64,000 nt of DNA from Micromonospora sp. WMMD1120 (lineage in GTDB: Bacteria; Actinomycetota; Actinomycetes; Mycobacteriales; Micromonosporaceae), in the NCBI RefSeq assembly GCF_029626235.1, contig NZ_JARUBO010000005.1, forward strand, positions 5,614,001 to 5,678,000, in the 5' to 3' direction. Position numbers and translations under genes: made by a program. Numbering within the stretch: position 1 is the first letter of the stretch; the number at the start of each line of letters is the position of its first letter. This document shows, one piece after another, positions 41,624 to 57,775 of the stretch. The notes under the pieces are model-generated. The model searched no databases. It was not told where the DNA came from and saw only the letters and a list, made by a program, of their open reading frames with translations.

Positions 41624-41629
41624 GCCCGA

Positions 41630-41712: not shown

Positions 41713-42387
41713 ATGGCATCGACGCTCACCGAGTCGACCGACCCGTACTGCCTGCGCCCCGGCGAGGCCGGGGAGCTGCTGCGCGGGCACCCGTGGCGGC
41801 GGTTCGTGGCGCTCGGCGACAGCGTGGTCGAGGGCATGTGCGAGCCGTCGCCGGGCTACCCGGACGTGCAGTGGGTCGACCGGATCGCCGCCGAGCTGAC
41901 CGCCGTACGCCCCGAGCTGGCGTACCGGAATCTGGGTCGACGTGGACTACGCGCGCACCAGGTACGCGCCACCCAGCTCGCCCCGGCCCTCGCGTTCGCG
42001 CCCGACCTCGCGCTCGTCGTCTGCGGCGGCAACGACGCCTTCCACCCGGCGTACGACGCCGAGGCGGTGGACGTCGAGCTGACCGCCATGATCAGCGCCT
42101 TACGGGCAGCCGGGGCGGACGTGATCACCGTCGGCATGTTCGACGTGTCGCACAGCCCGGCCGTCCCCGAGGCGCTACGACAGGGCCTGCGGGACCGGAT
42201 GCGTCGCCTGTCCGCGCACACGGCGCGCCTGGCCGAACGCCTGCGCACGATCCACGTGCACCTGACCGACCATCCTTTGACCGCCGACCCGACCCTCTAC
42301 AGCACCGACGGCCGCCACGGCAGCGCCCGCAGCGACGCGATAGCCACCGCCGAAACCCTAAGAGCCCTAACCCCCCACAAACCCTAA
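41713..42387 (+). CDS. Cytosolic SGNH/GDSL hydrolase
   Basis: A 224-aa SGNH hydrolase: block I FVALGDSVVEGMCEP, the Asn of block III in VCGGNDAFHP, and a C-terminal TDGRHGSARSDAIA with a weakly conserved Asp/His pair. It is slightly shorter than usual and its C-terminus (ALTPHKP) runs straight into the C-rich tract of repeat element C, so the natural end may have been altered. No signal peptide. Confidence 0.78.
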   Translation: MASTLTESTDPYCLRPGEAGELLRGHPWRRFVALGDSVVEGMCEPSPGYPDVQWVDRIAAELTAVRPELAYRNLGRRGLRAHQVRATQLAPALAFAPDLALVVCGGNDAFHPAYDAEAVDVELTAMISALRAAGADVITVGMFDVSHSPAVPEALRQGLRDRMRRLSAHTARLAERLRTIHVHLTDHPLTADPTLYSTDGRHGSARSDAIATAETLRALTPHKP

Positions 42388-43743: not shown

Positions 43744-45102
43744 TCAGGATTTTAGGAGGACTCCGGTGAGGAGGACTCCGTGGGCCAGGTTGAGCACTCC
43801 GTCGCAGCCGGGGTAGCCGACCCGGGCCAGGGCGCCGGAGGAGCGTCGGCCGAAGAGGTACGGGGCCAGCGAGTACGGGACGTCGGCGGTGACGGTGTCG
43901 CCGGTTTCGATGTGCACGAAGTCCATCGACACCCGGTCGGTGGGCAGGTACTCCTGCAGGATCGCGCCGCCCTGCTCGACGGCGGCGCGTAGGCCGTCGG
44001 CCCAGTCCGCCGGGCTCAGCTCCGGGCCGAGCAGCACGCCGTGCCCTGCCGAGCCGTCCGCCGGCTTCGCCACCAGCGTGGCCTGCTCGGTGATCGCCCG
44101 GTCCAGCACGGCGGCGGTCAGCGGCACCGTGTACGGCACGTGCCGACGGATGAGGGCCTGGTCGGCGGCGGCGAGGGTGTCCACGTCCTCCCACAGCCAG
44201 GCGAACGTGGTCTTGTTGCCGAGCAGCCAGGCCGCCGCCGACACGAACATCGGCAGGGTGCCGGCCGCGAGCGCCAGGGCCACGGCGTCCAGGCCGGCGG
44301 TCGGGGTGACCCGGTTGGGCACGAACAGCCGGAACAGCGCGTCGACCGGCGCGCCGGCCACGACGAGGCGGTTCTCGGCGTCCACGGTGGCGGTGGACAC
44401 CGGGGCGATGACCAGGTCGATGCCGAAGTCACTGGCGCGTACGGCCAGCGGGTCGAGGATCCGGATGAACGTCTCCGGGTCGTCCAGGCCGGGGTAGTCC
44501 GCGTCGAAGTCCATCAGCAGGGCCACCCGTGCCCCGTCGGGCAGGCGCAGTTCCTCGCGGATCGCCACGAACCGCTGGTCCAGCAGTGACCCGGCGGCGC
44601 GGACCGGCAGGTCGTCGAGGATGCCCCGCTCCTGGTAGAGCCGGGCGAACCGCTGGATGACGGTGTCGGCGTCGAAGCCGCCGCCGAGGCTGCTGTCGAT
44701 GTTGTACTCGACGAACTTCGGCACCCCGTCGGTGAAGATGACGTCCGGGCGGTACGCGGCCAGCAACGCCTCGGTCAGCGGCTCGGACTCGTCCAGCAGG
44801 CGGGTCTCCCCCGCCGGCACGCCGAGCAGCCGGCGCAGCGCGCCCGCGGTGTCCGCGCGGCGTCGGCAGGCGTCGAGAATGAGCTGGGCGAGCCGGTCGC
44901 ACACCTCGTTGAGCTCCCGCCAGGCGTCCGCGGCGAGGACCGGGGGGCGGGCCAACCGCCACTGTTTGTTGTAGGTGGCCCGGCCGTGGAAGACCTGCTC
45001 CCAGGCCGCCGCGCCGCTGTTCACCATGGCGGCGCGGGCCGACTCGGGCAGTGCGGCCCAGGCCCCCGACAGCGGCGGCCACGGGTAGTTCGGGTCGATC
45101 AT
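43744..45102 (-). CDS. Circularly permuted ATP-grasp ligase-like protein
   Basis: A 452-aa protein with features of permuted ATP-grasp enzymes: FVEYNIDSSLGGGFDADT in the first half, LVAKPADGSAGHGVLLG as the glycine-rich ATP loop, then ILQEYLPTDRVSMDFV and a metal-site region. Relatives make amide or peptide bonds via acyl-phosphates (glutathionylspermidine-synthase-like and natural-product ligases), so it may amidate the cluster's product. Its ATG overlaps the E1-beta stop. It is the last gene of the operon; a G/C-rich tract starts at its stop codon. Confidence 0.8.
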   Translation of the reverse strand: MIDPNYPWPPLSGAWAALPESARAAMVNSGAAAWEQVFHGRATYNKQWRLARPPVLAADAWRELNEVCDRLAQLILDACRRRADTAGALRRLLGVPAGETRLLDESEPLTEALLAAYRPDVIFTDGVPKFVEYNIDSSLGGGFDADTVIQRFARLYQERGILDDLPVRAAGSLLDQRFVAIREELRLPDGARVALLMDFDADYPGLDDPETFIRILDPLAVRASDFGIDLVIAPVSTATVDAENRLVVAGAPVDALFRLFVPNRVTPTAGLDAVALALAAGTLPMFVSAAAWLLGNKTTFAWLWEDVDTLAAADQALIRRHVPYTVPLTAAVLDRAITEQATLVAKPADGSAGHGVLLGPELSPADWADGLRAAVEQGGAILQEYLPTDRVSMDFVHIETGDTVTADVPYSLAPYLFGRRSSGALARVGYPGCDGVLNLAHGVLLTGVLLKS

Positions 45103-46067
45103 GATCCGTCCTTCATGGTCAGCTGGATGGCGGCGGCGAGCTGGTCCCGACCGGGTTGCACGGCCCGGTCCAGCGCCGGGGCGAACGGCAGCACCGCGCC
45201 GTCCGGTCGGGTCACCCGGCGGGGTGGGGCGAGCAGCCGGACCCGCCCCACCACCGAGGCGATGATCTCGGCGGCCATTCCGCAGGCCCGGTTGGCGTCG
45301 TCGAGCACCACGAGTCGGCCGGTGCGACGCACCGACTCGGTGAGACCATCGATGTCGAACGGGTACAGGGTGCGCGGGTCGAACACCTCCACCGACACCT
45401 GGTCGTCCAGCTCCTGCGCCACCGCGAGCGCGTCGTGCACCAGGTGCCCGACCGCGACCACGGTGACGTCGGCCCCGAAACGGTGGATCCGGCCCCGTCC
45501 CAGCGGCACCGGCGTCAGGTCGTCGACGTCGTCGCGCACGTCCATCGCGGCGGCCGGCGCGAACACCACCACCGGGTCGTCGTGGCGGATCGCGGTGACC
45601 AGCAGCCCGTACGCGTCGGCCGGGGTGGCCGGCACGACGGTGACCACGCCGACGTGGGCGAAGAGACTGTACGGGTGGTCGGAGTGCTGTCCGGCCCACC
45701 CGGTCCGCGAGCCGGAGCCGGGCACCAGGTAGGTGACCGGCACCGCGCACTGCCCGCCGGTCATCAGCGGGAACTTGTGCGCGTGGTTGACGATCTGCTC
45801 GAAGACCAGGAACAGCAGCGACGGGATCTGGAACTCGATCACCGGGCGCAGCCCGGCCAGCGCCGCCCCGGTGGCGAAGCTGGTGAACGCCTGTTCCGAC
45901 AGCGGGGTGTCGCGGACCCGCTGCACGCCGAACCGTTTGGCCAGGCCGGTGGTCACCATCGACGCGCCGACCCGGACGTCCTCGCCGAGCAGGAAGACCG
46001 CCTCGTCGCGGGCGAGTTCGTCGGCGAGGGCCCGGGTCAGCGCCCGGCGGTAGGACAGTCGGGGCAC
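45099..46067 (-). CDS. TPP-dependent 2-oxoacid dehydrogenase E1 beta (cluster copy)
   Basis: A 322-aa E1 beta/transketolase-like subunit: VFLLGEDVRVGASMVTTGL, RDTPLSEQAFTSFATGAALA, VFDPRTLYPFD and a C-terminal NRACGMAAEIIAS. It differs clearly from bkdB at 21309 and lacks a neighbouring E2 or E3. It therefore may act in a decarboxylation or acyl/aldehyde-transfer step with the ACPs. GTG 46067 is chosen because GGAGG lies 8 nt upstream and the upstream mini-ORF stops 1 nt before it; the frame also allows GTG 46076. Confidence 0.85.
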   Translation of the reverse strand: MPRLSYRRALTRALADELARDEAVFLLGEDVRVGASMVTTGLAKRFGVQRVRDTPLSEQAFTSFATGAALAGLRPVIEFQIPSLLFLVFEQIVNHAHKFPLMTGGQCAVPVTYLVPGSGSRTGWAGQHSDHPYSLFAHVGVVTVVPATPADAYGLLVTAIRHDDPVVVFAPAAAMDVRDDVDDLTPVPLGRGRIHRFGADVTVVAVGHLVHDALAVAQELDDQVSVEVFDPRTLYPFDIDGLTESVRRTGRLVVLDDANRACGMAAEIIASVVGRVRLLAPPRRVTRPDGAVLPFAPALDRAVQPGRDQLAAAIQLTMKDGS

Positions 46068-46068
46068 C

Positions 46069-46147
46069 TCAACCACCTCCGGTGGGAACGGTCATCAGCC
46101 ACCTCCGGTGGGAACGGTCATCAGCCACCTCCGGTGGGGACGGTCAT
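46069..46147 (-). repeat. Three tandem 26-bp repeats encoding coupled 8-aa mini-ORFs
   Basis: Between the E1 genes, three 26-bp direct repeats each contain GGAGGTGG and a nine-codon [12 protein letters not shown]: 46147-46121, 46121-46095 and 46095-46069. Each ATG overlaps the preceding stop as TGATG; the first overlaps the E1-alpha stop and the last stop lies 1 nt before the E1-beta GTG. The period (26) is exactly ORF length (27) minus one overlap base, so the coupling is preserved at every copy. Confidence 0.85.
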
Positions 46148-47118
46148 CAGCCACCTCCGGCGCGGCCGGTCAGGCCGCTGGCGTACAGGTGGACCAGCGC
46201 GTCGGCCGGGTCGGGCTCCGGGCTGTTGACCGCGAACCGCTCCGCGGCGTCGAGCGTCGCCTCGACCTCGGCGTCCACCGCCGCCCGGTCGACGTCGGCA
46301 AGTCGTGCCCCCTGGATGTCCACCGGGTCGCGGGACCGGCCCCGGCGCACCTCGTCCGGCGGGCGGTAGTCGAGGCGTACCGCGTGTTCGAAGGTGTGGT
46401 GGACGTCGAATCGGTACGTGCGGGCCTCGACCAGCTCCGGGCCGCCGCCGGCGCGCATCCGCGCGACGGCGGCGCGGGCGGCGTCGCGTACCGTCTCCGG
46501 GTCCTGTCCATCGACCTGGACGGCTGGGATGCCGAAGGCGGCGGCCCGGCCGGCGATGCTGCCGGCCACCGCGCCGTCGACCGGCATGGTGGTGGCGTAG
46601 CCGTTGTCCTCGCAGACGAACAGCACCGGCACCCGCCAGAGCGCGGCCAGGTTGAACGCCTCCAGCAGCATCCCCTCGTTGACGGCGCCGTCGCCGAAGA
46701 AGCTCACGCCGACGGTGTCGCGGCCCCGGCGGCGGTGCGCCCAGACCGCGCCCGTGACGATCGCGCCGGACGCGCCGACGATGGCGTTCGCGCCGAGGAC
46801 GCCGAGGCTCAGGTCGGCGGCGTGCATGGAGCCGCCGCGCCCGGCGTTGAGGCCGGTGACCCGCCCGCACAGCTCGGCGAGCATCCGGGCCGGGTCGGCG
46901 CCGCGCGCCAGCACGTGCCCGTGCCCGCGGTGGGTGCCGGCGAGCACGTCGTCGGGGCCCAGCGCCGCGCAGACTCCGGCGGCGATCCCCTCCTGACCGA
47001 GGTACGGGTGGATGCCGCCGACGATCTGCCCGGAGTGGACCAGCTCCACCGCCCGCTCCTCGAACCGACGGATCAGCCGGACCGTGCGGTAGAGCCGCAC
47101 CCCGTCGGCGTCGGTCAC
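46147..47118 (-). CDS. TPP-dependent 2-oxoacid dehydrogenase E1 alpha (cluster copy)
   Basis: A 323-aa E1 alpha subunit with the TPP/Mg motif [20 protein letters not shown] and [18 protein letters not shown]. It resembles acetoin/pyruvate E1-alpha subunits more than the bkdA type and is shorter. The GTG 47118 overlaps the DUF3050 gene stop by 4 nt; the frame upstream is unlike the family. It ends in the triplicated GGAGGTGG linker. With the beta subunit it could decarboxylate an aryl-2-oxoacid. Confidence 0.87.
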
Positions 47119-47906
47119 GCCGGGCCCTTGACGGCGGTCAGGATGTCGTCCCAGAGCCGGGCACGGGCGGTCAGCGCGAGGTTGACGGTGTCCGCGCACT
47201 CCTGCCACCTGGCGTCGTCGTCACCGCACAGGTCGGCGAGCATCTGCATGGCCATCGGCGTGTGCTGTTCGCCGTCGACCTCGATGTGCCGCCGAAGGTA
47301 GTCGACGAAGGTGTGCAGACGGTCGCTGTGCTCGTTGACCGCGACGACCTGAAGGAACATGTCCGGGATGAGGTCCTCCCGGCCGAACGCGAACGCCGCC
47401 GCCTGGCAGTGCACCGGGGACGACTCGATGATCTGCCAGGTGGTGGCGGCGAACCTGGCGGACGGCGCCGGGACGCCCGCCTCGGTGAGCGCGTCGCGCA
47501 CCGGCCGGCCGGCGCGCAGCAGAGCGACGAGGGCGTTCACGGCCGTGGTGTCCGCCCCGGCCTCGGTCATCCCCCGCACGTACAGCTCGAAGTGGCTGAT
47601 GTAGCCGCCACCCAGCTCGTCGCTCTCCTCCACCATCACGATGTCGTTGATGAGGCGGCGACTGCCGGTCGGACCGGTCGGGATCCACGGAACGTCGACG
47701 CAGGTGAGCTGCCGCTGCAACGACTTCAGCAGGGACATGAAGTCCCAGACCGCGAAGACGTGGTGCTCCATGAAGGTGACCAGCGCCCGGTGGGTGTCCA
47801 GGTTGGCGTAGAGCGGGTGCTTGACCACGGCGTCGCGCCGGTCGGTCACCGCGCGCTCCAGCCGTTCGATGCCGGGGTGTGTCTGTCCCCAGTCGTAGCG
47901 TGACAT
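47115..47906 (-). CDS. DUF3050 protein, predicted heme-oxygenase-like di-metal oxidase
   Basis: A 263-aa all-helical protein matching the DUF3050 family: [52 protein letters not shown] and [19 protein letters not shown]. The Glu/His pairs in these blocks sit where heme-oxygenase-like diiron oxidases (HDOs) bind metals. HDOs cleave C-C bonds or oxidise nitrogen in natural-product pathways. The exact reaction of DUF3050 members is, to my knowledge, not established. ATG 47906 has GGAGG 5 nt upstream and begins 1 nt after the PhyH stop. Confidence 0.85.
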
Positions 47907-47907
47907 G

Positions 47908-48834
47908 TCAGCCTCCCTGCGGGGCGCGGTGGCGCCAGATGACCGGGCAGTAGTCGGGGTCGGCGTAGTCGGGCCGTCCGTCCGGGGTGCGGCGGACCAG
48001 CACGTCGTGGTTGTACGCGGCGAGTGTGCCGTCGGAGAGCGGGTACTCCCGCCAGGCGTTGTCGCCGTCCTGCAGGTGCAGCGAGATCGCCTGCCGGGGG
48101 CGTCCGCTGACGTTGGGGCCGCTGCCGTGGTAGGTGCGGCAGTGGTGGAAGCTCACGTGCCCCTTCGGGATCACCATGGGGATCTTGCGGATCTCCGCGC
48201 CGTTGTACGTGGCGTTCTCGGCGAGCATCGCCTCCAACTGGCCGCGGTCGCGGTCGGCGAAGTGCCGCACCACGGTGTCGTCGGCGCCGATCTCCGTCCA
48301 CCGGTGCGAGCCGTCGACCATGGTGATGGTGCCCATCTCCTCCCCGCAGTCGTGGAAGGGAATGAACGCAGTGAGCATCTTCTCCGACGACGAGGACGCC
48401 CAGTAGTGCTTGTCGAAGTGCCAGGGCACGACGTTGCTCGGCTCGCCGTCGATCGGCGGCTTGTAGATCAGCGTGGACTGGAACACCCGGATCTCGTCGG
48501 CCTGGGCCAACCGGGCGGCGACCGCGCCGAGCAACGGCTTGCGCAGGATCGCGCCCAGTCCGTCGTGCTCGTGGTGGACGTAGTCGTTGTGCCGCTGCAC
48601 CGGCCCCTTCGACGGGTCCCAGTAGGCAAGCTTCGGTGGCCGCACCGGCAACCGGCGGTCGCGCTCGCCGTCGTAGTAGCGCTGCGCGGCGGCGGCCAGC
48701 GCGTCCACCTCGTCGTCGGCGAACAGCTTGCCCGACAGGTACCAGCCGTGCTCGGCGTAGTGCCGCACGTCGTCGTCGGAGGGCAGCAGCGCCCGCTCCG
48801 CGGCGGTGAGCGTCGGCTCACTCCGCACGATCAC
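47908..48834 (-). CDS. Phytanoyl-CoA dioxygenase family Fe(II)/2-oxoglutarate oxygenase
   Basis: A 308-aa PhyH-type oxygenase. The iron ligands are visible as H-x-D in [11 protein letters not shown] and a distal His in [16 protein letters not shown], where the following Arg binds 2-oxoglutarate. These enzymes hydroxylate, halogenate or desaturate small molecules; no halogenase-type replacement of the Asp is seen. The GTG start overlaps the stop of the HmaS-like gene by 4 nt, so the two are co-translated. Confidence 0.88.
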
Positions 48835-49919
48835 GCGCCCACCCCCTCTGGTGTGGCCGCCCGGGAGGCCAGCTCCCGCTCTTTCGCCTCGTAGAGCGCC
48901 TTGATGTTGCCGCTGCCGAAGCCCCGCGCGCCCCGCCGCTCGATCAGCTCGAGGAAGAGCGTGCGACGCACGTGCACCGACTCGGCGAAGATCTGCAACA
49001 GTTGGCCGTCATGGTCGGAGTCGACGAGCACGCCCAGCTCGCGCAGCCGGTCCAGGGGTGCGTCCAGCGGGCCCACCCGCGCCTCCAACCCGTCGTAGTA
49101 GCTGGCCGGCGTCCCGGCGAAACGCACCCCGCGACCGCGGAGCGTCTGCACGGCGGTGATGATGTCGTCGGTGCGCAGGCCGAGGTGCTGCACTCCCCCA
49201 CCGGCGTGCTGGTCCAGGAACGCGTCGATCTGCCCCGGCCGCCGGCCCAGGTCCGGTTCCAGCAGCACCACCGTGACCCGCCCGGACGGGCTCTGCACCA
49301 CCGTGGAGTTCATGCCCTGCCCGTCGACCTCGACGTGCTCCTCGAAGACCTGCGCGAAGTCGAACAACCCCGCGAAGTGCCGAGCCGTCGCGTCGAGCTG
49401 GCCCGGCGGCACGCAGACCGCCAGGTGGTCGATCTCGGCCAGCACCGGCGGGTGGGCCTGCCCGGTCGGTTCGGTGGGCGCGATGAGGCCGGGCAGGACG
49501 TCGGCCCGGTCGCCCCGGCGCTGCACGAGCCGGTGCCGCACGTCGGCGAAGCCCTCCACCTCGGCGGTCACCACGTCGTCCGCGCCGCCACGGCTGGTCG
49601 GTGGCGTCACCCCGGTCGCGCCCCGACCCACCAGCTCGGTGTACGCGGCCACGACGTCGTCGACGGCGACGGCGACGACGGCGATGCCGTCACCGTGGCG
49701 CCGCACGTACCGGGCCGCCGGATGCTCGGCGGTCAACCCCGAGGTGAGCAGCAGCCGGATGTCGCCGTGGCGCAGCAGCAGCGAGCGCTGCCCCGCCAGC
49801 CCGGTCTCCGGGCCCCCCTGCCCGCAGACCTCGAAGCCGACGGCGGTGCTGAAGTAGTGGGCCGCCTGCCGGGCGTCCCCCACGTAGAGTTCGATGTGGT
49901 CGATCCCACGGATGTCCAT
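48831..49919 (-). CDS. 4-Hydroxymandelate synthase / 4-hydroxyphenylpyruvate dioxygenase family enzyme
   Basis: A 362-aa two-VOC-domain Fe(II) enzyme. Iron ligands: His165 (EIDHLAV), His245 (GGVQHLGL) and Glu324 (LFLELIE). The C-terminal block GFGSGNIKALYEAKERE closes the active site. At the substrate pocket it reads MNSTVVQSPSGRVTVVLLEP, which matches the HmaS wording rather than the HPPD form with a Pro-Ile-Asn strand. I therefore favour hydroxymandelate formation from 4-hydroxyphenylpyruvate (or mandelate from phenylpyruvate). ATG 49919 is the first Met before the conserved IDHIELYV. Confidence 0.83.
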   Translation of the reverse strand: MDIRGIDHIELYVGDARQAAHYFSTAVGFEVCGQGGPETGLAGQRSLLLRHGDIRLLLTSGLTAEHPAARYVRRHGDGIAVVAVAVDDVVAAYTELVGRGATGVTPPTSRGGADDVVTAEVEGFADVRHRLVQRRGDRADVLPGLIAPTEPTGQAHPPVLAEIDHLAVCVPPGQLDATARHFAGLFDFAQVFEEHVEVDGQGMNSTVVQSPSGRVTVVLLEPDLGRRPGQIDAFLDQHAGGGVQHLGLRTDDIITAVQTLRGRGVRFAGTPASYYDGLEARVGPLDAPLDRLRELGVLVDSDHDGQLLQIFAESVHVRRTLFLELIERRGARGFGSGNIKALYEAKERELASRAATPEGVGA

Positions 49920-49991
49920 GTCCCTGTAAGCCCTTCGCACCTGGTTCCCCCGCTTGCCGTCCGGGCGCGCCCGCCCGGGGTGCCGCGTCGA

Positions 49992-51230
49992 TCACCTCCT
50001 CGGCTCGGCGACGCGCGCGAGCAGCAGGCTGACGTTCTGTCCGCCGAACCCGAACGAGTTGGTGACCGCGTACTCCGGGTCGGCCTTGCGGGGCGCGTCA
50101 CGGATGTGGTCCGCCGGGCAGGCCGGGTCCGGGTCGTCGAGGTGGTACGTCGGCGGCAGCAGCCCCCGACCGAGCGCCAGGGCGGTGGCCGCCGCCTCCA
50201 GCGCCCCGGAGGCGCCCAGCAGGTGGCCGGTGAGCGCCTTGGTGGAGCTGACCGGCACGCCGCCGACGCCGAACACGTCGGCGAGGGCGGTGGCCTCCGC
50301 GATGTCGCCGAGTTTGGTGCCGGTGCCGTGCGCGTTGACGTAACCGACCACCGCCGCCGGCACACCGGCGCTGCGCAGCGCCCGCCGCAGGCAGGCCGCC
50401 GCCCCGGCGCCGTCCGGGCGGGGCGCCGTCGGGTGGTACGCGTCGGTCGTCACCCCGTACCCGGCCACCTCGGCGTACGCGGCGACACCTCGCGCGGCGG
50501 CGTGTTCGGCGCGTTCCAGCACCAGCAGGGCCGCGCCCTCGGACAGCACGAAGCCGGTGCGGGAGGTGTCGAACGGCCGGCTCGCCCGGCCCGGGTCGGT
50601 GCCGGCGCGGGCCAGCGCCCGGGCGTTGCCGAAGGTGTCGGCGAAGGTCGGGAAGAGCGGCGCCTCGCTCGCCCCGCAGAGCACCACGTCGGCGTCCCCG
50701 GTCGCGATCAGCCGGACCGCGTCGGCGACCGCCTGCGCGCCGGAGGCGCAGGCCGTGCCGACCGACGAGCTGTAGCCCCGGATGCCGTGCGCGATGGCGA
50801 TCCGCGCCGCCGGCATGTTCGGCAGGATGCCGGTGAGCAGGTACGGGCTGACCGCCGCCCGTCCCCGGGCGGCCCGCGCCAGCACCTGCGACTCCAGGGT
50901 GGCCAGTCCGCCGACACCGCCGACGATCACGGCGATCCGGTCGCTGTCGACGTCGCGGCCCACCTCGATGCCCGCGTCGGCGAGCGCGTCGGCGGCGGCG
51001 AGCAGGGCGAGCACCACGATGCGGTCGAGCACCCGGGTCTCCGGCCCGGACGCGACGGTCCGTGGGTCGACGGCCGGCAGCAGGCCGGCGACGTCCAGCG
51101 ACGCCCGCGCCGGGTGGTCCTCGGGCGGGCGGGTCAGCCCGGACCGCCCGGTGGTCAACGCCTCGAAGGTCTCCTCCACACCCCGCCCGACCGGGGTGAA
51201 CAGGCCCATCCCGGTGATCAGCGCGGTCAC
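49992..51230 (-). CDS. Beta-ketoacyl-ACP synthase, FabF-like, with full catalytic triad
   Basis: A 412-aa condensing enzyme: active-site Cys161 in SSVGTACASGAQAV, His in NAHGTGTKLGD and His in KALTGHLLGASG. Closest in style to FabF-like ketosynthases of aryl-polyene or similar type II systems. The GTG 51230 overlaps the ligase stop by 4 nt. It probably pairs with the defective ketosynthase or the CLF-like protein of the same operon. A 72-bp gap separates it from the HmaS-like gene. Confidence 0.92.
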   Translation of the reverse strand: MTALITGMGLFTPVGRGVEETFEALTTGRSGLTRPPEDHPARASLDVAGLLPAVDPRTVASGPETRVLDRIVVLALLAAADALADAGIEVGRDVDSDRIAVIVGGVGGLATLESQVLARAARGRAAVSPYLLTGILPNMPAARIAIAHGIRGYSSSVGTACASGAQAVADAVRLIATGDADVVLCGASEAPLFPTFADTFGNARALARAGTDPGRASRPFDTSRTGFVLSEGAALLVLERAEHAAARGVAAYAEVAGYGVTTDAYHPTAPRPDGAGAAACLRRALRSAGVPAAVVGYVNAHGTGTKLGDIAEATALADVFGVGGVPVSSTKALTGHLLGASGALEAAATALALGRGLLPPTYHLDDPDPACPADHIRDAPRKADPEYAVTNSFGFGGQNVSLLLARVAEPRR

Positions 51231-52843
51231 GAGGACACCTCGCTGAGGTGGCGCTCGCGCAGGACCACCTTGCGGACCTTGCCGGTCACGGTGACCGGGA
51301 TGTCGTCGGGGCGTACCGGCACGACCCGGCGCAGCGTCGCGCCGACGTCCGGGCCGAGCGCGGCGCGGATCCGCTCGGTGCGGTCCTCGTTCTCGTCGGC
51401 GGCGGGAGCCACCTCCAGCAGCACGTCGGTGACCACCCCGCCGGGCCCGCCGACCATCACCACTGTGCAGTCGGTGACGTCCGGGCAGGCGGCGAGGATG
51501 CGCTCCTCGGACAGGGCGGTGTAGAAGCGCCGGCCGTCCCCGGCGTCGACAGCGTCCACCGCCCGGTCCACGTGGTAGTACCGACCGTCGGCGTCGACGC
51601 GGACCAGGTCCCCGGTGAGGTACCAGCCGCGTTGGCGGAACCGGTAGGTGGTGACCGAGTCGTTCCAGTAGCCGCGGAACAGCGACGGCGAGTCGATGCC
51701 CAGGAAACCCACAGCGCCGGTGGGTACCGGCTCGCCGTCGGCGTCGAGCACGGCGACCCGGGCGAACCGGTACGGGCGGCCGATGCAGCGGCCGTACCGG
51801 TCGGTGTCGGCGCGGTGGGTGATGTGGAACATCGAGTGCCCCATCTCGCTGGAACCCAGCCCGTCGATGAAGATCGAGCCGGGCACCGTGGCCACCCCGT
51901 CGCGGGTGACGGTGTCGTGCCAACCGACGGCGACCAGACGACGGATGTGCGGCTCGTGCGAGGCGTCACCGGTGTTGAACCACAGCCGCACCGAGTTGAG
52001 GTCGTACGCGGACAGGTCGAGGCGGGCCAGCTCCGCCCAGGTCACCGAGAACCCGAACACGCCGTCGGGCCGCCAGCGTTGGATGGCGTCGACGACCCGT
52101 TCGCCGCTCTGCTCGGACAGCAGCAGCATCTGCGCCCGGTTGCCCAACGCCTGGTTGACCATCAGCACGGTGGCGGTGTGCGGGGCGGGCAACGCGTTGA
52201 GGATCCGGCTGGTGCCCTGCGCCTGCGGCATGCCGAGCAGGTGCCGGGTGGCGGCGAACAGGCTGGCGTGCGAGTGCAACACCGACTTGGGAACCCCCGT
52301 CGTCCCGGAGGTGTGGGTGATCACGATCGGGTCGTCCGGATGGTGCCGGTGGTGCGCCGGGGCCGCCGCCGGGTCGCCCGTGCCCGCCCGCGCGGGCGTG
52401 CCCAGCAGTGGTACGCCCAGGTCATGCCCGGCCAGCGACGCGGCGTGCGCGTCGTCGGCGAGCACACCCACACCCCGCAGGCGGCGGATGTACTCGGCGG
52501 CGATCTCCGGCCGCAGGGCACCGTTCATCAGCGCCGGGATCGCCCCGAGCCGGGTCAGCGCCAGGTAGCTGAGCACCATGTCGGCGGCGGCCGAGGACCA
52601 GACGGCGACCGGGTCGCGCGGGCGTACCCCGCGTCCGTGCAGCCAGGCGGCGCGGGCGGCGACCCGCTCGTCGAGCTGTCCGAGGGTGAGGGGCGTCTCG
52701 GCGGGGTGGCCGTCGACGGCGGTGTCGAAGGTCAGGCCGGGCCCGTCCGGGTCGGCGCCGTGCGCCAGCACCCGGGCCAGGACGTTGCCCGCGCCCACCT
52801 CGGTGTCGGCGGCCAGCGTGCCGCGTAGTCCCGGTGTCCTCAT
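51227..52843 (-). CDS. Acyl-CoA/ACP synthetase (ANL family)
   Basis: A 538-aa adenylating enzyme: A3 motif IVITHTSGTTGVPKSVLHSH, A5 region FIDGLGSSEMGHSMFH, then WYLTGDLVRVDADGRYYHVDR and the A10 Lys in TVTGKVRKVVLRE. It would activate a carboxylic acid starter or precursor for loading on one of the ACPs. GGAGGAG lies 7 nt before the ATG. Both ends overlap neighbours by 4 nt, the tightest coupling in the operon. Confidence 0.9.
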   Translation of the reverse strand: MRTPGLRGTLAADTEVGAGNVLARVLAHGADPDGPGLTFDTAVDGHPAETPLTLGQLDERVAARAAWLHGRGVRPRDPVAVWSSAAADMVLSYLALTRLGAIPALMNGALRPEIAAEYIRRLRGVGVLADDAHAASLAGHDLGVPLLGTPARAGTGDPAAAPAHHRHHPDDPIVITHTSGTTGVPKSVLHSHASLFAATRHLLGMPQAQGTSRILNALPAPHTATVLMVNQALGNRAQMLLLSEQSGERVVDAIQRWRPDGVFGFSVTWAELARLDLSAYDLNSVRLWFNTGDASHEPHIRRLVAVGWHDTVTRDGVATVPGSIFIDGLGSSEMGHSMFHITHRADTDRYGRCIGRPYRFARVAVLDADGEPVPTGAVGFLGIDSPSLFRGYWNDSVTTYRFRQRGWYLTGDLVRVDADGRYYHVDRAVDAVDAGDGRRFYTALSEERILAACPDVTDCTVVMVGGPGGVVTDVLLEVAPAADENEDRTERIRAALGPDVGATLRRVVPVRPDDIPVTVTGKVRKVVLRERHLSEVSS

Positions 52844-53277
52844 TGTCGTGCTCCTCCCCCCAGCAGCACCGCGACCGCCGCGCAGGACGCGTCGGGTGCC
52901 TGTTCGATCAGGATCAGCAACACCTCGTCGGCGTCGCCGTCGTGGCGCAGCAGGTCCGCCTCGGCCAGACCGTCGGCGTACGGGTCACCGGTCGGGCTGA
53001 GGCAGACCACCGGGCCGAGAAGACCCCAACGGGCCGCGACGTGTCCGGCGACGCTGTTGGGCACGGACTGGAAGAAGAACAGCGGGCCGACCCGCCCGCC
53101 GGCCGCGACGCTCGCCCGTACGTGTTCGGCGCTGGCGAGGTCGCCGCTGGCGCTGACCAGCACGACCGCCGTCCGCACCCCCGCCGGCACGCCGCCGGAC
53201 CCGTACCCGCGCCGCAGGCACCGCTCGGCGACGGCCACCACGACCGGCGCGAAGTCCGAGTGCACGAACCCCGGCAC
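52840..53277 (-). CDS. Ketoacyl-synthase-fold 'chain length factor' family protein (PF13723-like), N-terminally short
   Basis: A protein of about 145 aa whose body matches the small CLF-like proteins of aryl-polyene clusters: AVVLVSASGDLASAEHVRAS, then PLFFFQSVPNSVAGHVAARW and LLGPVVCLSP. It keeps the thiolase-fold strand/helix pattern but has no catalytic Cys. Family members are about 230-250 aa, so about 90 N-terminal residues are missing. The upstream DNA is repeat element B, which may have replaced them. GTG 53277 or 53265 could start it; the frame is open through the element. Confidence 0.65.
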   Translation of the reverse strand: MPGFVHSDFAPVVVAVAERCLRRGYGSGGVPAGVRTAVVLVSASGDLASAEHVRASVAAGGRVGPLFFFQSVPNSVAGHVAARWGLLGPVVCLSPTGDPYADGLAEADLLRHDGDADEVLLILIEQAPDASCAAVAVLLGGGARQ

Positions 53278-53319
53278 CCCCGCCGCCCGCCCGTCCCCGC
53301 GTTCAGGCCAACAAGCCCG

Positions 53320-53490
53320 CGCCCTCTCCCCCGCCCCGTCCCCCGCCCTGTCCCCCGGCGATCTTGCACTTTCGGTCGCCGTTTCGCGGGCTTTGTCGAG
53401 TTCGTCGGGACAGGAAGTGCAAGATCGCGGGGAGGGGTGGGGGGTGGGGTGGGGGGTGGGGTGCGGGGTGGGGTGGGGGGTGGGGGTTGG
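53320..53490. repeat. C-tract / palindromic core / G-tract element B
   Basis: A C-rich tract (53320-53358), a 67-bp core (53360-53426) with perfect 12-bp ends GATCTTGCACTT / AAGTGCAAGATC, and a G-rich tract of GGGGTGGGG units to 53490, two bases from the KS stop codon. The core's right end (ACAGGAAGTGCAAGATC) is shared with element A. It interrupts an operon whose other junctions mostly overlap. Confidence 0.82.
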
Positions 53491-53492
53491 GG

Positions 53493-54599
53493 TCATGGGG
53501 CGCCCACCAGGAGGGCGGTGTTGGCACCGCCGAAGGCGGCGTTCAGGGTCAGGGCGTTGCGCGTCGTTGTTCGTCGAGGACCGTCGAGGATGACGTTCAG
53601 CGGGCACGCCTCGTCGGGGCCGAGCCAGCCGGTGTTGACCGGCAGCGTGCCGTCGCGCAGCGCCAGCGCGGTGACCACCAGTTCGAGCAGGCCGGACGCC
53701 TCCAACGCGTGCCCGTGCAGCGCCTTCGTGGAGCTGATCGGAACCCGCACGCCGTACCCGCCGAGGGCCCGGCGCAGCGCGGCGGCCTCGGCGGCGTCGC
53801 TCTGCGCGGTGCCGGTGGCGTTGGCGTTGACGTACCCGACGGCCTCCGGCGACACCCCGGCCCGACGCAGCGCGCCCCCGACAGCGCGGGCCAGCCCGGT
53901 GCCCGCCGGGTCCGGCTGGCAGGGGTGGAACGCGTCGCCGGCCCGCCCCCAACCGGCCACCGTGGCCACCGCGTCGGCACCGGTTGGCGGGCGCTCGTCG
54001 CGCGACTCGAGCACCACGGCGGCGACGCCGTCGCCGAGCAGCAGCCCACGGCGGCCGACGCTGAACGGGCGGACCACCCCGTCGACGGCGAGGGCGCGGC
54101 CGGCGTCGAAGAGCGCGAACTGGTCCGGTTCCACCAGGTAGCCGGCGGCGACCACGACCCGGTCGACGCTGCCCCGGCTGATCAGGGCGGCGGCGTCGGC
54201 CACCGCCGTGCTCGCCGACACGCAGGCGCTGGTGTAGACCCGGGTGTGCCCGGAGAGCCCGCACCGGGCGGCGAGCCGGCCGGCGAGAGCGGCCGGGCCG
54301 CCGCCGGGAGCCGGGCCGCCGTGCACGGCGAGCAGCAGGGCGCATCCGGTACGCCGGGCGCGGTCCAGGCCGGCCGCCGCGCAGGCCTCCACGATCGCGT
54401 CGGTCAGCTCGTCGGCGAGCGTCCCGACGTCGGGCAGGGTGGCCGCCACGGTGCTCCGGCGGCCGGTGGTGTCGAACCGGCGGACCGGGCCGAACGCCGG
54501 CACACCGGCCAGCACACCGGCGAGCTGCGCCGACGCGCCGCGACCGAGGGCGCTGACCGCGTGGACACCGGTGAGCTGGACGACCCGGGCGTCAACCAT
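53493..54599 (-). CDS. Ketosynthase-like protein with Asn in place of a catalytic His
   Basis: A 368-aa condensing-enzyme homologue. Cys126 (VYTSACVSASTAV) and the second His297 (KALHGHALEASG) are kept, but the first His of the NAHGTGT motif is Asn260 here (VNANATGTAQSD), so the site is Cys-Asn-His. It is shorter than normal in the region before the active-site Cys. It could be a decarboxylation-impaired condensing enzyme, an acyltransferase or a partner subunit. It overlaps the ACP gene by 8 bp. Next to its stop lies repeat element B. Confidence 0.85.
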   Translation of the reverse strand: MVDARVVQLTGVHAVSALGRGASAQLAGVLAGVPAFGPVRRFDTTGRRSTVAATLPDVGTLADELTDAIVEACAAAGLDRARRTGCALLLAVHGGPAPGGGPAALAGRLAARCGLSGHTRVYTSACVSASTAVADAAALISRGSVDRVVVAAGYLVEPDQFALFDAGRALAVDGVVRPFSVGRRGLLLGDGVAAVVLESRDERPPTGADAVATVAGWGRAGDAFHPCQPDPAGTGLARAVGGALRRAGVSPEAVGYVNANATGTAQSDAAEAAALRRALGGYGVRVPISSTKALHGHALEASGLLELVVTALALRDGTLPVNTGWLGPDEACPLNVILDGPRRTTTRNALTLNAAFGGANTALLVGAP

Positions 54600-54837
54600 C
54601 CGCGCGGGCGGTCAGTGACGCCCGGAACACCCCCAGGGCGTCGTCGACGGTACGGATGCGCGCCAGCTCGTCGTCGGTGAGGTCGAGCTGGTGCTGGTAG
54701 CGCTGTTCGACGAGATGCACCAGCCAGGCCAGTTCCATCGAGCCGATCCGGTCGGGCACCTCGGCGGTCGGTTTCGCGGTGAGTTCGGCGAGCATGGCCA
54801 GCAGGTCCGCTCGCCCCAGTTCGGGCGGAGCGCCCAT
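54592..54837 (-). CDS. Acyl carrier protein 1
   Basis: An 81-aa acidic helical protein; the phosphopantetheine Ser is probably Ser33 in RIGSMELAWLV, where the usual DSL is GSM. Size and position between a ketosynthase and a second ACP support the call. The ATG forms a TGATG overlap with ACP 2. Confidence 0.8.
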   Translation of the reverse strand: MGAPPELGRADLLAMLAELTAKPTAEVPDRIGSMELAWLVHLVEQRYQHQLDLTDDELARIRTVDDALGVFRASLTARADG

Positions 54838-55103
54838 CAGGACCGGTCGCTCGTCGCCTCGGCGACCCGGTTGGCGACCATCGTCGTGAACTCGCCGACC
54901 GTCATCAGCGCCAGTTGCTCCGACTCGTCGTCGGCGAACGTCAGGCCGTAGCGGTCCTCGACCCGGACCGACAGGTCGGCCAGGGCCAGTGACTCCAGGT
55001 CGACGCCGGACGGGCCGAGCGTGGTGTCGTCGTCGATCCCCTCGACGTCGTAGTTCATGTCGGCGAGCTGCTCGACGACGAAGGCGCGGACCTCGGCTCT
55101 CAT
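54837..55103 (-). CDS. Acyl carrier protein 2
   Basis: An 88-aa ACP with Ser38 in GVDLESLALADLSVRVED as the likely carrier site (ESL for the usual DSL). It is the first gene of the minus-strand operon. AGAGGG is upstream of the ATG. The divergent phosphopantetheinyl transferase starts only 15 bp away, so the two promoters must overlap or be placed inside the genes. Confidence 0.85.
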   Translation of the reverse strand: MRAEVRAFVVEQLADMNYDVEGIDDDTTLGPSGVDLESLALADLSVRVEDRYGLTFADDESEQLALMTVGEFTTMVANRVAEATSDRS

Positions 55104-55118
55104 GGATACCCTCTCTGG

Positions 55119-55832
55119 GTGGGCCAGCTGACGGTGCCCGGTCGGGACACCGCCTACGTGTGGGTCGGTCGGGACACCGGCGGTCAGCCGGACCCTGCCG
55201 TTGTTCTGCTGCGGCGGGCGGGCGCCCTGCTGCTCGGGTGCGCCGAGGCCGAGCTGACGCTCGGCCACGACGGCGTGGGGCGACCGTGCGTCCGCGTCCA
55301 CGAGAGGGTGGCGGCCCTGTCCGTCAGCGTCAGCCGTACCGCCGGGTGGGTGGTCGTGGCCGCGCGCCGGACCGGCGAGGTCGGTGTGGACGTGGAGCTG
55401 GTCCGCGACCTGCCCGCGCTGGCGTTGGCCCGCCGCTGGTTCCCGCCCGCTGAGAGCGCCTGGCTGGCCGAGCGGTCCGAGGCGGACCGGGGCGTCGACT
55501 TCCTGCGACTGTGGACGGCGAAGGAGGCGGTCGGCAAGGCCCTCGGGCTGGGGCTGCGCGGCGGTGGGCTGCTCCGGGAGATGCCGCCGCCGGGGATGCC
55601 GCCGCGCCGGGTGCCCGGCGTCGAGCGCCTCTGGGTCGGCCATCCCGAGCTGGGCGCGGGGCTCGTCCTGGCCGTCGCGGCGCGGGCCGGCGGGCCGGTC
55701 GACGTCGAGGTGGCGCAACGGCCCGGTCACGACGTGACCGCCGAGCGCAGCGCGTCGGTCGAACGGACCAGTTTGCCGGTGGTGGTGCGCGGCAACCGGT
55801 CGAGCAGGTGCAGCACCCGGGGGCGTTTGTAG
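55119..55832 (+). CDS. Sfp-type 4'-phosphopantetheinyl transferase
   Basis: A 237-aa PPTase that activates the ACPs with phosphopantetheine from CoA. Signature motifs: VGVDVELVRD with the Mg-binding residues and FLRLWTAKEAVGKALGLGL. The last 35 or so residues (from about VTAERSASV) are antisense to the 3' end of the facing ligase and look unlike PPTases, so the original stop has probably been lost. GTG 55119 is the first start; with no ribosome site it may be leaderless. Confidence 0.88.
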   Translation: MGQLTVPGRDTAYVWVGRDTGGQPDPAVVLLRRAGALLLGCAEAELTLGHDGVGRPCVRVHERVAALSVSVSRTAGWVVVAARRTGEVGVDVELVRDLPALALARRWFPPAESAWLAERSEADRGVDFLRLWTAKEAVGKALGLGLRGGGLLREMPPPGMPPRRVPGVERLWVGHPELGAGLVLAVAARAGGPVDVEVAQRPGHDVTAERSASVERTSLPVVVRGNRSSRCSTRGRL

Positions 55833-57121
55833 CCGGCCAGCCGTTGGGCGAGCAGCGCGTCCACCGTCTGCTCGGACAGCGGGCCGTCCGGCTGGATGTA
55901 CGCGGTGATGCCGTCGTCCCACACCACCACCGCGCCGGCCACCCCGGGCAGCTCGGCGACGGTGGTCTCCACCTCGGTCAGGTCGACCTTCATCCCGCCC
56001 ACCGAGACCTGGGAGTCGAGCCGGCCGCGTACGGTGACCAGGCCGGTGTCCGCATCGACGGTGCCGGCGTCGCGGGTGTGCAGCCAGCCGTCCGCCCACC
56101 GCGTCGGGTCGCTCAGGCCGACGTACGGCGACGCCGGGCAGGACACATGTAGCTCACCGCCGGACTCGCGGACCTCGATGCCGGGCGCCGGGGCGATCGA
56201 CGGCCGGTGCGTCCCGTGCAGGTCGGTGCCGATCACCCCGACCTCGGTCATCCCGTACATGTTGCCCAGCGGCACCCCGTACCGGTCGGTGAACGCCCGG
56301 GCGACGGCGGCCGGCACCAGCTCGCCACCGGTGGTCATCCGGCGTAGCTGGGGCAGCGGCCCGGCCGGCCGGGTGGAGGCCAGCAGTCCGATGTGGAACG
56401 GGACGCCCAGCACGGTGGCCGGCGTCGTGTCGGCGGCGATCGCGGCCAGCACGGCGTCGCCGCTGAGCCGCTGTGGTGGGACCAGCTCGACCCCGGCGTG
56501 CAGGCCGTAGAGCAGGCCGCCGACCAGACCGAGGACGTGCACCATCGAGGGCAGCAGGATGATCCGCTCACCGGGCAGCGCCACCCCGTCGATCAGCGTG
56601 TAGCGGCGCACCTCGGCGACCAGGTCGGCGGCCGTGCGGCCGATCACCTTGGACGGGCCGGTGGAGCCGGAGCTGAGCTGGATCACGGCGTGGCCGCTGA
56701 CGGCCGGACGGTCGGCGTACGGGGTGACCGTCTCGGTGACGTCGACGAAGACCTTCAACGCCCCGCCGCCGGCGTGCACCGGCGCGACCACCACCTGCGG
56801 GGTCAACCGGCGCAGCGCCCGGTCCACCTCGTGGTCGGTCAACCGGTGGTCGAGCAGGATCGCCTGCCCCCCGGCCCGCCAGGTGGCCAGCAGGTTCACC
56901 ACGTACGCCAGCGACGGCGGCAACCGCAGCGCGGCGGCGCCACCGGGGCGCAGTCCGGCGGCGGTGAGCCGGTCCTGCGCGGCGGTGACCAGCCGGTGCA
57001 GCGTGGCCCTGTCGACCGGCTCGGGCAGACGGAGACACACGTCGGTCGGACGGCCCGCGAACAGGACTTCGTCCACCCAGACCGGGTCATCTACCGTAAA
57101 ATTTTCGGCGAAATGCTTCAT
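55727..57121 (-). CDS. Acyl-CoA synthetase / AMP-dependent ligase 2
   Basis: A 464-aa ANL-family enzyme of the shorter type: A3 motif AVIQLSSGSTGPSKVIGRT, A5 region NMYGMTEVGVIGTDLH, GWLHTRDAGTVDADTGLVTV and the A10 Lys in PRTTTGKLVRSTDAL. Aryl-acid or fatty-acid activation is likely. It is divergent from nothing and convergent with the PPTase gene, overlapping it by about 106 bp. ATG 57121 is preceded by GGTGGGGG. The codons just after the start are AT-rich (ACNFTVDD region). Confidence 0.88.
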   Translation of the reverse strand: MKHFAENFTVDDPVWVDEVLFAGRPTDVCLRLPEPVDRATLHRLVTAAQDRLTAAGLRPGGAAALRLPPSLAYVVNLLATWRAGGQAILLDHRLTDHEVDRALRRLTPQVVVAPVHAGGGALKVFVDVTETVTPYADRPAVSGHAVIQLSSGSTGPSKVIGRTAADLVAEVRRYTLIDGVALPGERIILLPSMVHVLGLVGGLLYGLHAGVELVPPQRLSGDAVLAAIAADTTPATVLGVPFHIGLLASTRPAGPLPQLRRMTTGGELVPAAVARAFTDRYGVPLGNMYGMTEVGVIGTDLHGTHRPSIAPAPGIEVRESGGELHVSCPASPYVGLSDPTRWADGWLHTRDAGTVDADTGLVTVRGRLDSQVSVGGMKVDLTEVETTVAELPGVAGAVVVWDDGITAYIQPDGPLSEQTVDALLAQRLAGYKRPRVLHLLDRLPRTTTGKLVRSTDALRSAVTS

Positions 57122-57223
57122 TGCCCCCACCGTTCGACGCGCAGCGCAAAGTAGGGCATAAGAGCCAATTCCTGGCATCTTTCGAGGTGCTGCCGGAACC
57201 CTACGACAGCCTCGCTCGGCATC

Positions 57224-57614: not shown

Positions 57615-57703
57615 AGCCGGGGCCAGTCGTCGGCGCGGCCCGCCCCCAGTTGCCCAGCCGATCGCGGCGACTGAGGGGCTCCGAGAAAGGATCTGCCCCG
57701 AAG

Positions 57704-57730
57704 CCTCACATATCCCTGGCCTGCGTCGTC
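57704..57730 (+). promoter_or_regulatory. Putative ECF41-type promoter
   Basis: CCTCACA (57704-57710), 16 nt, then CGTC (57727-57730). The described ECF41 target is TGTCACA-N16-CGTC, so the -35 matches 5 of 7 and the -10 and spacing are exact. It lies about 45 bp before the oxidoreductase GTG and would let the ECF41 sigma factor encoded downstream drive its own operon. Confidence 0.65.
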
Positions 57731-57775
57731 ATAGTGGTGAGGGCGGCGACCGGTGGCCCCGGAACGGAGTGGGAA

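Follow-up and report, generated by a model that had tools for sequence, protein, structure and literature searches.

HmaS, Hmo and HpgT make up the glycopeptide-type L-4-hydroxyphenylglycine cassette. In the avenalumic acid (ava) and p-coumaric acid (cma) clusters the starter acyl carrier protein (ACP) carries a pair of residues, Trp and His, at a distance of three positions (Trp38 and His41 in CmaA3; PMC10777205). Tri17 is a nitrogen–nitrogen (N-N) enzyme of triacsin biosynthesis, and for fragin HamA is given as a putative one (PMC11705231). Here we analyze an operon with likenesses to all of these systems, located in a stretch of 64 000 nt (the window) of the genome of Micromonospora sp. WMMD1120 (contig NZ_JARUBO010000005.1, positions 5 614 001–5 678 000). 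We lean towards the reading that the cluster would turn a tyrosine-derived hydroxyphenyl unit into a small molecule by way of HmaS, Hmo, HpgT, a polyketide synthase (PKS) and nitrogen coupling. No paper describing this cluster was found in the literature searched, most subscription papers lying outside that search; as far as the search reaches, the cluster is undescribed, and what is new is the combination of its parts and, among these, two relatives of nitrogen-chemistry enzymes.

Gene content and conservation of the operon

The operon comprises 13 minus-strand genes (43744–57178) and a plus-strand phosphopantetheinyl transferase gene (55119–55832), in the following order (KS, ketosynthase-type condensing enzyme; AMP, AMP-dependent ligase):

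43744–45102, minus strand: ATP-grasp ligase, glutathione-synthetase-like fold in the predicted model, no Pfam match over cut-off
45099–46076, minus strand: E1 beta, PF02779 and PF02780
46147–47118, minus strand: E1 alpha, predicted subunit of a thiamine diphosphate-dependent 2-oxo acid decarboxylase, PF00676 (212 bits)
47115–47906, minus strand: DUF3050, predicted HamA-type haem-oxygenase-like diiron oxygenase (HDO), PF11251 (320 bits)
47908–48834, minus strand: PhyH, PhyH-type Fe(II)/2-oxoglutarate oxygenase, PF05721 (86 bits)
48831–49940, minus strand: HmaS, 4-hydroxymandelate-synthase-like, best PDB match 2r5v (289 bits)
49992–51230, minus strand: KS1, FabF-like condensing enzyme with Cys-His-His motifs, PRK07314 (422.6 bits, cut-off 387)
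51227–52843, minus strand: AMP2, ANL ligase of the ATP-dependent diazotase family, AvaA6 model (496 bits, cut-off 975)
52840–53520, minus strand: KSg, short partner resembling a chain-length factor (CLF) or cyclisation factor (CYF), start uncertain, PF13723 (32.3 bits), AmcG (30.3 bits, cut-off 80)
53493–54599, minus strand: KSf, condensing enzyme with atypical triad Cys126-Asn260-His297, fabF (204.8 bits, cut-off 493.75)
54592–54837, minus strand: ACP2, putative AvaA3/CmaA3-like (starter) carrier, without Pfam match
54837–55127, minus strand: ACP1, putative AvaA2/CmaA2-like (malonyl) carrier by position, PF00550 (20.8 bits, at cut-off)
55119–55832, plus strand: Sfp-type 4'-phosphopantetheinyl transferase (PPTase), between AMP1 and ACP1, PF01648 (54.6 bits)
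55727–57178, minus strand: AMP1, putative acyl/aryl-ACP ligase, AvaA1-like by position, start at 57121 or 57178, PF00501 (105 bits) and PF13193

Neighbouring genes overlap by 1–8 nt at seven junctions (45099/45102, 47115/47118, 48831/48834, 51227/51230, 52840/52843, 54592/54599 and 54837). Gaps were observed between DUF3050 and PhyH (1 nt), E1 beta and E1 alpha (∼70 nt), HmaS and KS1 (at least 51 nt) and ACP1 and AMP1 (∼600 nt, holding the PPTase gene on the opposite strand); the KSg–KSf spacing is uncertain because the KSg start position is ambiguous. The gene types named in an earlier annotation of the window (the original prediction) were all found at their intervals and in their orientation. 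Its count of twelve genes, all correctly on the minus strand, becomes 13; its description of them as mostly overlapping by 1–8 nt fits the seven junctions and fails at the four gaps; and its extent, 43744–57121, captured the operon while overlooking the PPTase gene and the right half of the cluster (30515–42387).

The operon is not a chance assembly, because its gene order recurs, together with PhyH and DUF3050, in 47 of the 80 best DUF3050 loci, which we analyzed out of at least 588 confirmed in a scan of named genomes. The fetched loci end at a 10-kb limit or at contig ends, and absences near their edges are weak. All 13 genes were present in 24 of the 47 operon loci, which represent 10 actinobacterial groups: Micromonospora (19), Kribbella (5), Kitasatospora/Streptomyces (5), Catenulisporales (4), Salinispora (3), Dactylosporangium (3), Streptosporangiaceae (3), Actinophytocola (2), Catellatospora (2) and Phytohabitans (1). 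A DUF3050 gene was detected at E-value 1e-60 in 36 of 61 sampled Micromonospora genomes; the pathway would thus occur in more than half of the sample, as well as in Salinispora, Kribbella, Kitasatospora and others. Not every part of the operon is universal: AMP1 was seen in 36 and KSg in 41 of the 47 loci, and ATP-grasp was not seen in 20, many of these misses falling at contig ends or at the fetch limit. One operon variant (L159, G307:C164:60000-79500) has condensation-domain, KS III-like and second PPTase-like genes.

We regard the whole locus, ∼30.5–57.2 kb, as probably a dedicated, conserved biosynthetic cluster. Its conserved neighbours are as follows:

30515–31618, minus strand: FMN-dependent hydroxymandelate-oxidase-like enzyme (Hmo, FMN_dh), PF01070 (419 bits)
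31611–32573, minus strand: alpha/beta hydrolase, PF07859, LipP1 (351.8 bits, cut-off 350), syntenic in L153 and L156
32581–33792, minus strand: cytochrome P450, PF00067 (120 bits), syntenic in L153 and L156
33858–35162, minus strand: large GDSL protein, 434 aa, PF13472, in 16 of 47 operon loci
35432–36994, plus strand: AMP-dependent ligase, PF00501 (169 bits), in 21 of 47 operon loci
36991–38217, plus strand: predicted MFS exporter, PF07690, in 20 of 47 operon loci
41713–42387, plus strand: GDSL esterase, PF13472, family in 28 of 47 operon loci

In another Micromonospora (L153) the order is serine hydroxymethyltransferase, a small gene, HpgT-like gene, FMN oxidase, alpha/beta hydrolase, P450 and large GDSL protein, then, all three on the opposite strand, ligase, MFS protein and small GDSL protein, followed by the operon. 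The window keeps this order from 30515, interrupted by an insertion sequence element (42499–43602) and three further genes; the HpgT-like gene is gone and the small gene directly adjoins the FMN oxidase gene. The element, a plus-strand transposase gene with an rve integrase core that we take to be IS30-like, separates the small GDSL gene from the ATP-grasp gene. In a variable part of the locus, an APH-type phosphotransferase gene (38326–39216, plus strand) has as neighbours two genes whose proteins gave no Pfam match at the default threshold. Immediately upstream of the operon are genes of a spore-pigment-type type II PKS (59932–63744, minus strand: KSbeta, KSalpha, cupin and a carrier-cyclase fusion), and between them and the operon (57650–59561, plus strand) are an NAD-binding-like gene and a gene for an extracytoplasmic function (ECF) sigma factor with a SnoaL-like tail.

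Proposed supply of hydroxyphenylglycine

The solved chains closest to the operon HmaS were 2r5v (289 bits), 7yvv (279) and 3zgj (270), with the 4-hydroxyphenylpyruvate dioxygenase (HPPD) 1t47 behind at 233; 2r5v and 3zgj we take to be HmaS enzymes. At one C-terminal position, where Ile in place of Phe presumably steers the product towards the hydroxymandelate rather than the homogentisate type, we observed Ile in the operon HmaS, in a second HmaS of the same genome (HmaS2), in 2r5v and in 7yvv, and Phe (GKGNFKAL) in the genome's own HPPD. Among 48 operon-family rows the residue was Ile in 47 and Val in one, and the metal-binding His, His and Glu motifs were kept in most rows. The HPPD model TIGR01263 also matches the operon protein above cut-off (341 bits; cut-off 277). 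Closest chains and the Ile-for-Phe position nevertheless support the original assignment of a hydroxymandelate-synthase-like enzyme and not an HPPD.

The FMN oxidase at 30515 is 56% identical to the oxidase of a second cassette in the genome and 48% identical to another paralogue. We found it in 35 of the 36 DUF3050-positive Micromonospora genomes, within 25 kb of DUF3050 in 32, two of the remaining copies being on another contig and one at 40 kb (matches in G014, partial at 68%, and in G055, at 49%, are excluded from the tallies of this gene). This proximity supports its proposed membership in the locus.

The HpgT-like gene (at least 74% identity) was present in 34 of 36 DUF3050-positive and two of 25 DUF3050-negative Micromonospora genomes (Fisher test, P = 2e-12, shared ancestry ignored). 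In 35 of the 36 genomes that carry it (33 of them DUF3050-positive), no more than 1.6 kb separated its start from that of the FMN oxidase. Of the 34 copies in DUF3050-positive genomes, 30 lay no further than 27 kb from DUF3050, three were on other contigs and one was at 41 kb. The family was also seen in 11 operon loci outside Micromonospora among the 80 best DUF3050 loci. Two operon-bearing Micromonospora genomes, this one and G002, miss the gene at the locus. The genome studied here has a compact HmaS2-Hmo2-HpgT2 cassette outside the window (C5:6361339-6364909, L151); in G002, which was searched for Hmo and HpgT, a pair of the two lies near C1:1128840. A second HpgT copy alone does not explain the loss, because G008, G012 and G037 keep the in-cluster gene and have a second HpgT-like copy as well; the absence in the window is probably a local deletion. 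The original prediction had correctly noted that no HpgT is found at this locus, but its conclusion that hydroxyphenylglycine is not the obvious end point finds no support in the relatives, 33 of which have the gene beside the FMN oxidase, or in the separate cassette of this genome.

The condensing-enzyme cassette

The order AMP1-ACP1-ACP2-KSf-KSg-AMP2 is that of cmaA1-A6 and avaA1-A6 (PMC10777205). In ACP2 the Trp was conserved in 38 of 38 rows and the Trp-x-x-His pair, compared with that of CmaA3 by residues and spacing, in 33 of 38; the Trp and His of the pair were found in none of 41 ACP1 rows. Serine motifs were universal, DL[ED]SL in ACP1 (41/41) and [GD]S[LM] in ACP2 (38/38). Both AMP1 and ACP1 were seen in 36 loci; in 21 of these, tblastn detected a PPTase match on the opposite strand of the gap between them, three matches being short.

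The KSf triad was C-N-H in 31, C-H-Q in nine and C-H-H in one of 41 rows; two of the 43 rows (L009 and L023) are omitted from this count, as those loci are cut by contig ends and offered just a paralogue. KSf keeps the Cys and, as a rule, one His, and may be read as having a Cys/His/amide triad of the KAS III-like kind, which we assume as its model. KS1 retains its Cys-His-His motifs in nearly all of 45 rows. The cluster would thus offer a type II PKS whose catalytic triad is altered.

The sequences support the originally predicted ACP/KS set, to which ligase loading is added here. A further expectation, that any extension would stay unreduced because no ketoreductase or dehydratase is visible, does not follow, because for the cma cluster, which is collinear, recruitment of the fatty acid synthase dehydratase has been proposed, and loss of the putative cma reductase gene lowered production and did not abolish it (PMC10777205, Discussion). 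Neither 3-amino-4-hydroxybenzoic acid (3,4-AHBA) synthase genes nor nitrite-pathway genes were found in the operon. The BagB/FevI 3,4-AHBA aldolase model had no match at 1e-40 in this genome, on which ground a 3,4-AHBA starter was dropped, or in 33 of the 36 operon-bearing genomes; scores of 384, 186 and 177 bits (cut-off 500) were obtained in G019, G051 and G006.

Two relatives of enzymes linked to nitrogen chemistry

The DUF3050 protein has E93, H105, E177, H207, D211 and H215, the six HDO metal ligands listed, with the same numbering, in PMC4520260; they are at least 97% conserved among 81 sequences and invariant in a 30-row alignment. The best fold match of its predicted structure (pLDDT 87.4) was HamA (9vwb; TM-score 0.82/0.87, 37% identity), which was also the sole match in a sequence search at E-value 0.01 (185 bits). 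By sequence and model the protein is assigned to the HamA family of haem-oxygenase-like diiron oxygenases. The locus offers a testable setting for this family, whose reaction remains hypothetical in the parts of the literature cited here.

The 33 DUF3050 loci without the operon, among the best 80, served as a comparison set. An AvaA6-family ligase adjoins DUF3050 in L037 and L043, and in L038 one gene lies between the two. These ligases are 44–45% identical to the ligase of L140 and are preceded by an adenylation domain and a flavin amine-oxidase-like gene, identified in L043 and, by similarity to it, in L037 and L038; the small cluster is a possible second N-N module. A PabAB-like gene (47–51% identical to that of L143) was adjacent to, or one gene from, DUF3050 in 13 of the 33 loci, mainly from Streptomyces (L064, L071–L074, L077–L081, L083, L085 and L088). 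Most of these also contain a class IV aminotransferase-like gene, ligases and an FAD monooxygenase-like gene, and the PabAB-like gene of L072 was confirmed as aminodeoxychorismate synthase. Such neighbourhoods suggest an aromatic amine substrate. By guilt by association the DUF3050 neighbourhoods favour nitrogen oxidation, which falls short of proof. CreD-like matches of 28–30% in L041, L055–L057 and L059 were considered as a link to nitrite and rejected on the one match that was tested, that of L055, which exceeds the adenylosuccinate lyase cut-off.

Close solved relatives of AMP2 were limited to 8ztz (412 bits), Tri17 (333) and 9xb8 (264), the next ANL protein scoring 101. By sequence AMP2 falls within the CreM/AvaA6/Tri17 subfamily, its AvaA6 score being under the curated cut-off. 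In a tree the AMP2 proteins form one family far from two outgroup ligases; the deep forks are not resolved and we claim no sister group. The original prediction did not place AMP2 in the AvaA6/Tri17 family or DUF3050 in that of HamA; both enzymes resemble proteins linked to N-N bond formation. A plasmid search with AMP2 gave relatives all below 40% identity and was put aside. A second AMP2-like gene, 59% identical, is found with KS III-like and glycosyltransferase-like genes in a different Micromonospora genome (L150, G012:C1:2331981-2333582).

Of 12 neighbourhoods of AMP2-family genes that were fetched, genes were tested in five (L140, L141, L143, L148 and L149). A nitrosuccinate lyase scoring 694.6 bits (cut-off 650) was found in L140 alongside a DhnA-type aldolase, and L143 encodes an aminodeoxychorismate synthase together with a nitrate-reductase-like protein at 738.6 bits (cut-off 1100); the tested genes of L141, L148 and L149 included no comparable nitrogen-pathway gene. 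In L143 and L145, the latter resembling L143 by gene sizes only, the AvaA6-family ligase is very close to PDB 9xb8, and this type is perhaps a nitrate-fed diazotase cluster. The best nitrosuccinate lyase match in the genome studied here, outside the window, scored 374.6 bits against the cut-off of 650, and the nitrosuccinate route to nitrite was set aside for it. Three of the 61 Micromonospora genomes exceeded the cut-off, and of these G019 alone bears the operon, with the lyase gene 466 kb away from DUF3050; the operon-bearing G037 and G049 reached 634 and 630 bits, on other contigs. A nitrate-reductase-like gene of this genome scored 547 + 211 bits, below cut-off. The nitrosuccinate pathway is likewise missing from 72 of 134 ava-like clusters (PMC10777205). 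The cluster may extend diazotase-family chemistry beyond AHBA-derived amines.

PhyH, the E1 pair and the ATP-grasp protein

The PhyH motifs WHFD and YHGS were conserved in 48 of 48 rows each, and the GDG motif of E1 alpha in 46 of 47, with one gap. The genome holds no close paralogue of E1 alpha, the two best full-length ones being 38% and 33% identical. No E2 or lipoyl domain match was found among the operon proteins scanned; therefore, E1 likely delivers its unit to a carrier or ligates it. Decarboxylation of 4-hydroxybenzoylformate by E1, as put forward in the original prediction, is possible. The window holds another E1 alpha/beta pair, with a 470-aa gene after it (19912–23395, minus strand), its alpha subunit 38% identical to that of the operon; it is probably part of a branched-chain 2-oxo acid dehydrogenase complex.

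The predicted structure of the ATP-grasp protein (pLDDT 90.2) had glutathione synthetase as its best PDB match (E-value 6e-16, TM-score ∼0.6, 14% identity). The model bears out the ATP-grasp assignment and indicates a glutathione/glutathionylspermidine synthetase fold, consistent with amide formation.

Proposed pathway and alternative readings

The sequence supports the gene set, synteny, families and active-site residues; each reaction below, and the product, is a proposal. HmaS would convert tyrosine-derived 4-hydroxyphenylpyruvate to 4-hydroxymandelate, and the FMN oxidase would convert this to 4-hydroxybenzoylformate. In one branch an HpgT-like aminotransferase, supplied in trans in this genome, would form L-4-hydroxyphenylglycine; in the other, E1 alpha/beta would probably deliver or ligate a decarboxylated hydroxybenzoyl unit. 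AMP1 may charge ACP2 with an acyl or aryl acid, the PPTase arming the carriers; ACP1 would supply malonyl, and KSf-KSg, with KS1, would carry out a single condensation or a few, on the pattern of the avenalumic/p-coumaric acid cassette. The carrier-bound or free product would be oxidised by PhyH and the HamA-type enzyme, AMP2 would join it to a nitrogen partner (as may the ATP-grasp enzyme in Micromonospora, Salinispora and Kribbella), and the MFS protein would export it. We prefer this pathway because of the synteny of the operon, the co-occurrence of the HpgT-like gene, the homology and diagnostic residue of HmaS, the order of the cassette, the Trp-x-x-His pair of ACP2, the HDO ligands and HamA fold, the fold of the ATP-grasp protein and the lack of a close genome paralogue of E1 alpha.

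Several observations weigh against this pathway. Nineteen of the 25 DUF3050-negative Micromonospora genomes (20 with the partial G014 match) have the FMN oxidase as well, and it may have a second, independent role. The HpgT-like gene matched no curated HpgT model and was named by its place beside the oxidase. G022 and G053 have the gene without DUF3050, the G053 copy carrying a stop, and the supply of hydroxyphenylglycine in this genome, its in-cluster HpgT gone, is only presumed. The best solved relatives of AMP1 were oxalate and chlorobenzoate CoA ligases, at no more than 80 bits. AMP2 and KS1 were not seen in the fetched stretch of L039 and L042, and the 19.5 kb of L159, which hold most operon genes, showed no DUF3050.

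Of the alternatives, the one that deserves most attention, unlikely as we hold it, is that the cluster installs an N-N or oxidised-nitrogen group: the HamA-type enzyme would oxidise an amine, and AMP2, with nitrite and ATP, would place a diazo, nitroso or related group on a hydroxyphenylglycine-derived product. The restricted solved relatives of AMP2, with Tri17 among them, the L140 and L143 nitrogen genes near AMP2-family ligases, the listing of HamA for fragin (PMC11705231), the pairing of DUF3050 with an AvaA6-family ligase in another cluster type, the PabAB-like genes near DUF3050 and the nitrate-reductase-like gene of this genome, even if below cut-off, speak for it. However, the AMP2 score is about half the AvaA6 cut-off, no AMP2 was detected in L032, L039 or L042, and nitrosuccinate lyase exceeds its cut-off in just one of 36 operon-bearing Micromonospora genomes; moreover, an mgoB mutant still makes mangotoxin at a lower level (PMC3298696), and HamA is reported to be non-essential for the hydroxylamine intermediates (PMC11659414). 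A fuller version, in which a hydroxyphenylglycine-derived carrier-bound polyketide, made with a KSf having one catalytic His, has its nitrogen oxidised and coupled to give an N-N product (diazo-, nitroso- or diazeniumdiolate-type), is more speculative still; if it were true, the pair of DUF3050 and diazotase-family ligase, seen again in L037, L038 and L043, would be a recurring N-N module. The route of the original prediction, in which E1 turns 4-hydroxybenzoylformate into a 4-hydroxybenzoyl starter for the PKS with hydroxyphenylglycine uninvolved, appears doubtful, though less so than this fuller version: the locus does combine HmaS, FMN oxidase and E1, its cassette belongs to the aryl-starter type and the window itself has no HpgT, but 34 of 36 operon-bearing relatives have the HpgT-like gene, there is no E2 and the E1 substrate is assumed.

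Two other readings have far lower probability. That the operon tailors the neighbouring spore-pigment-type polyketide is very improbable: a KSbeta of pigment type adjoins the operon in nine loci (eight Micromonospora, one Salinispora), with the whole set in L154, but in G047 (L155) the pigment genes occur without the operon, beside the FMN oxidase, and none were seen beside the Kribbella, Dactylosporangium and Catellatospora operons, a weak absence as only 1–3 kb upstream of AMP1 was covered. Least probable of all is that KSf-KSg is a KS-CYF pair of the cispentacin/coronafacic type making a cyclopentenone from 2-oxoglutarate. This was our first lead, given a short KS with a CYF-like partner, an ACP and a ligase, weak matches to the AmcF, AmcG and AmcB models, and the 'minimal' amcB-F-G-H clusters described in PMC10698177. 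We rejected it on cut-offs (AmcG, 30.3 against 80; AmcF, 140.5 against 325, fabF being the better model; AmcG over cut-off in none of 296 sampled genomes) and on a gene order and two-ACP signature that fit ava/cma.

Comparison with known systems

Among described systems, amc (cispentacin) and cfa (coronafacic acid) share with the operon a discrete ACP, a ligase, a KS and a short KS-like partner; they differ in that the operon proteins fall below the AmcF and AmcG cut-offs and that no aminotransferase, thioesterase or hot-dog gene is among the operon genes. AMP2 belongs by sequence to the ANL subfamily of Tri17 (triacsin), whereas the operon has no nitrite-pathway gene. The ham (fragin, valdiazen) and mgo/pvf clusters, with HamA, MgoB and PvfA, have a DUF3050 protein of the same family (37% identity to HamA); unlike them, the locus has no AurF-type N-oxygenase among the proteins scanned here, and the partner of DUF3050 is a diazotase-family ligase. 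Genes assigned to all three types of the hydroxyphenylglycine cassette, HpgT by its location, occur in the locus of most operon-bearing relatives, and a compact second copy in this genome, but the cassette is split across the locus and HpgT is missing from the window. The ava and cma clusters come close in the order ligase-ACP-ACP-KS-CLF-diazotase, in the equally spaced Trp/His pair of the second ACP and in having no dehydratase gene in Table 1 of PMC10777205, a likeness judged from gene order, the published description and the AvaA6 model. In contrast to ava/cma, the operon has no 3,4-AHBA synthase or nitrosuccinate lyase, an AMP2 under the AvaA6 cut-off and an altered KSf triad, and it adds KS1, HmaS, PhyH, DUF3050, E1 and ATP-grasp.

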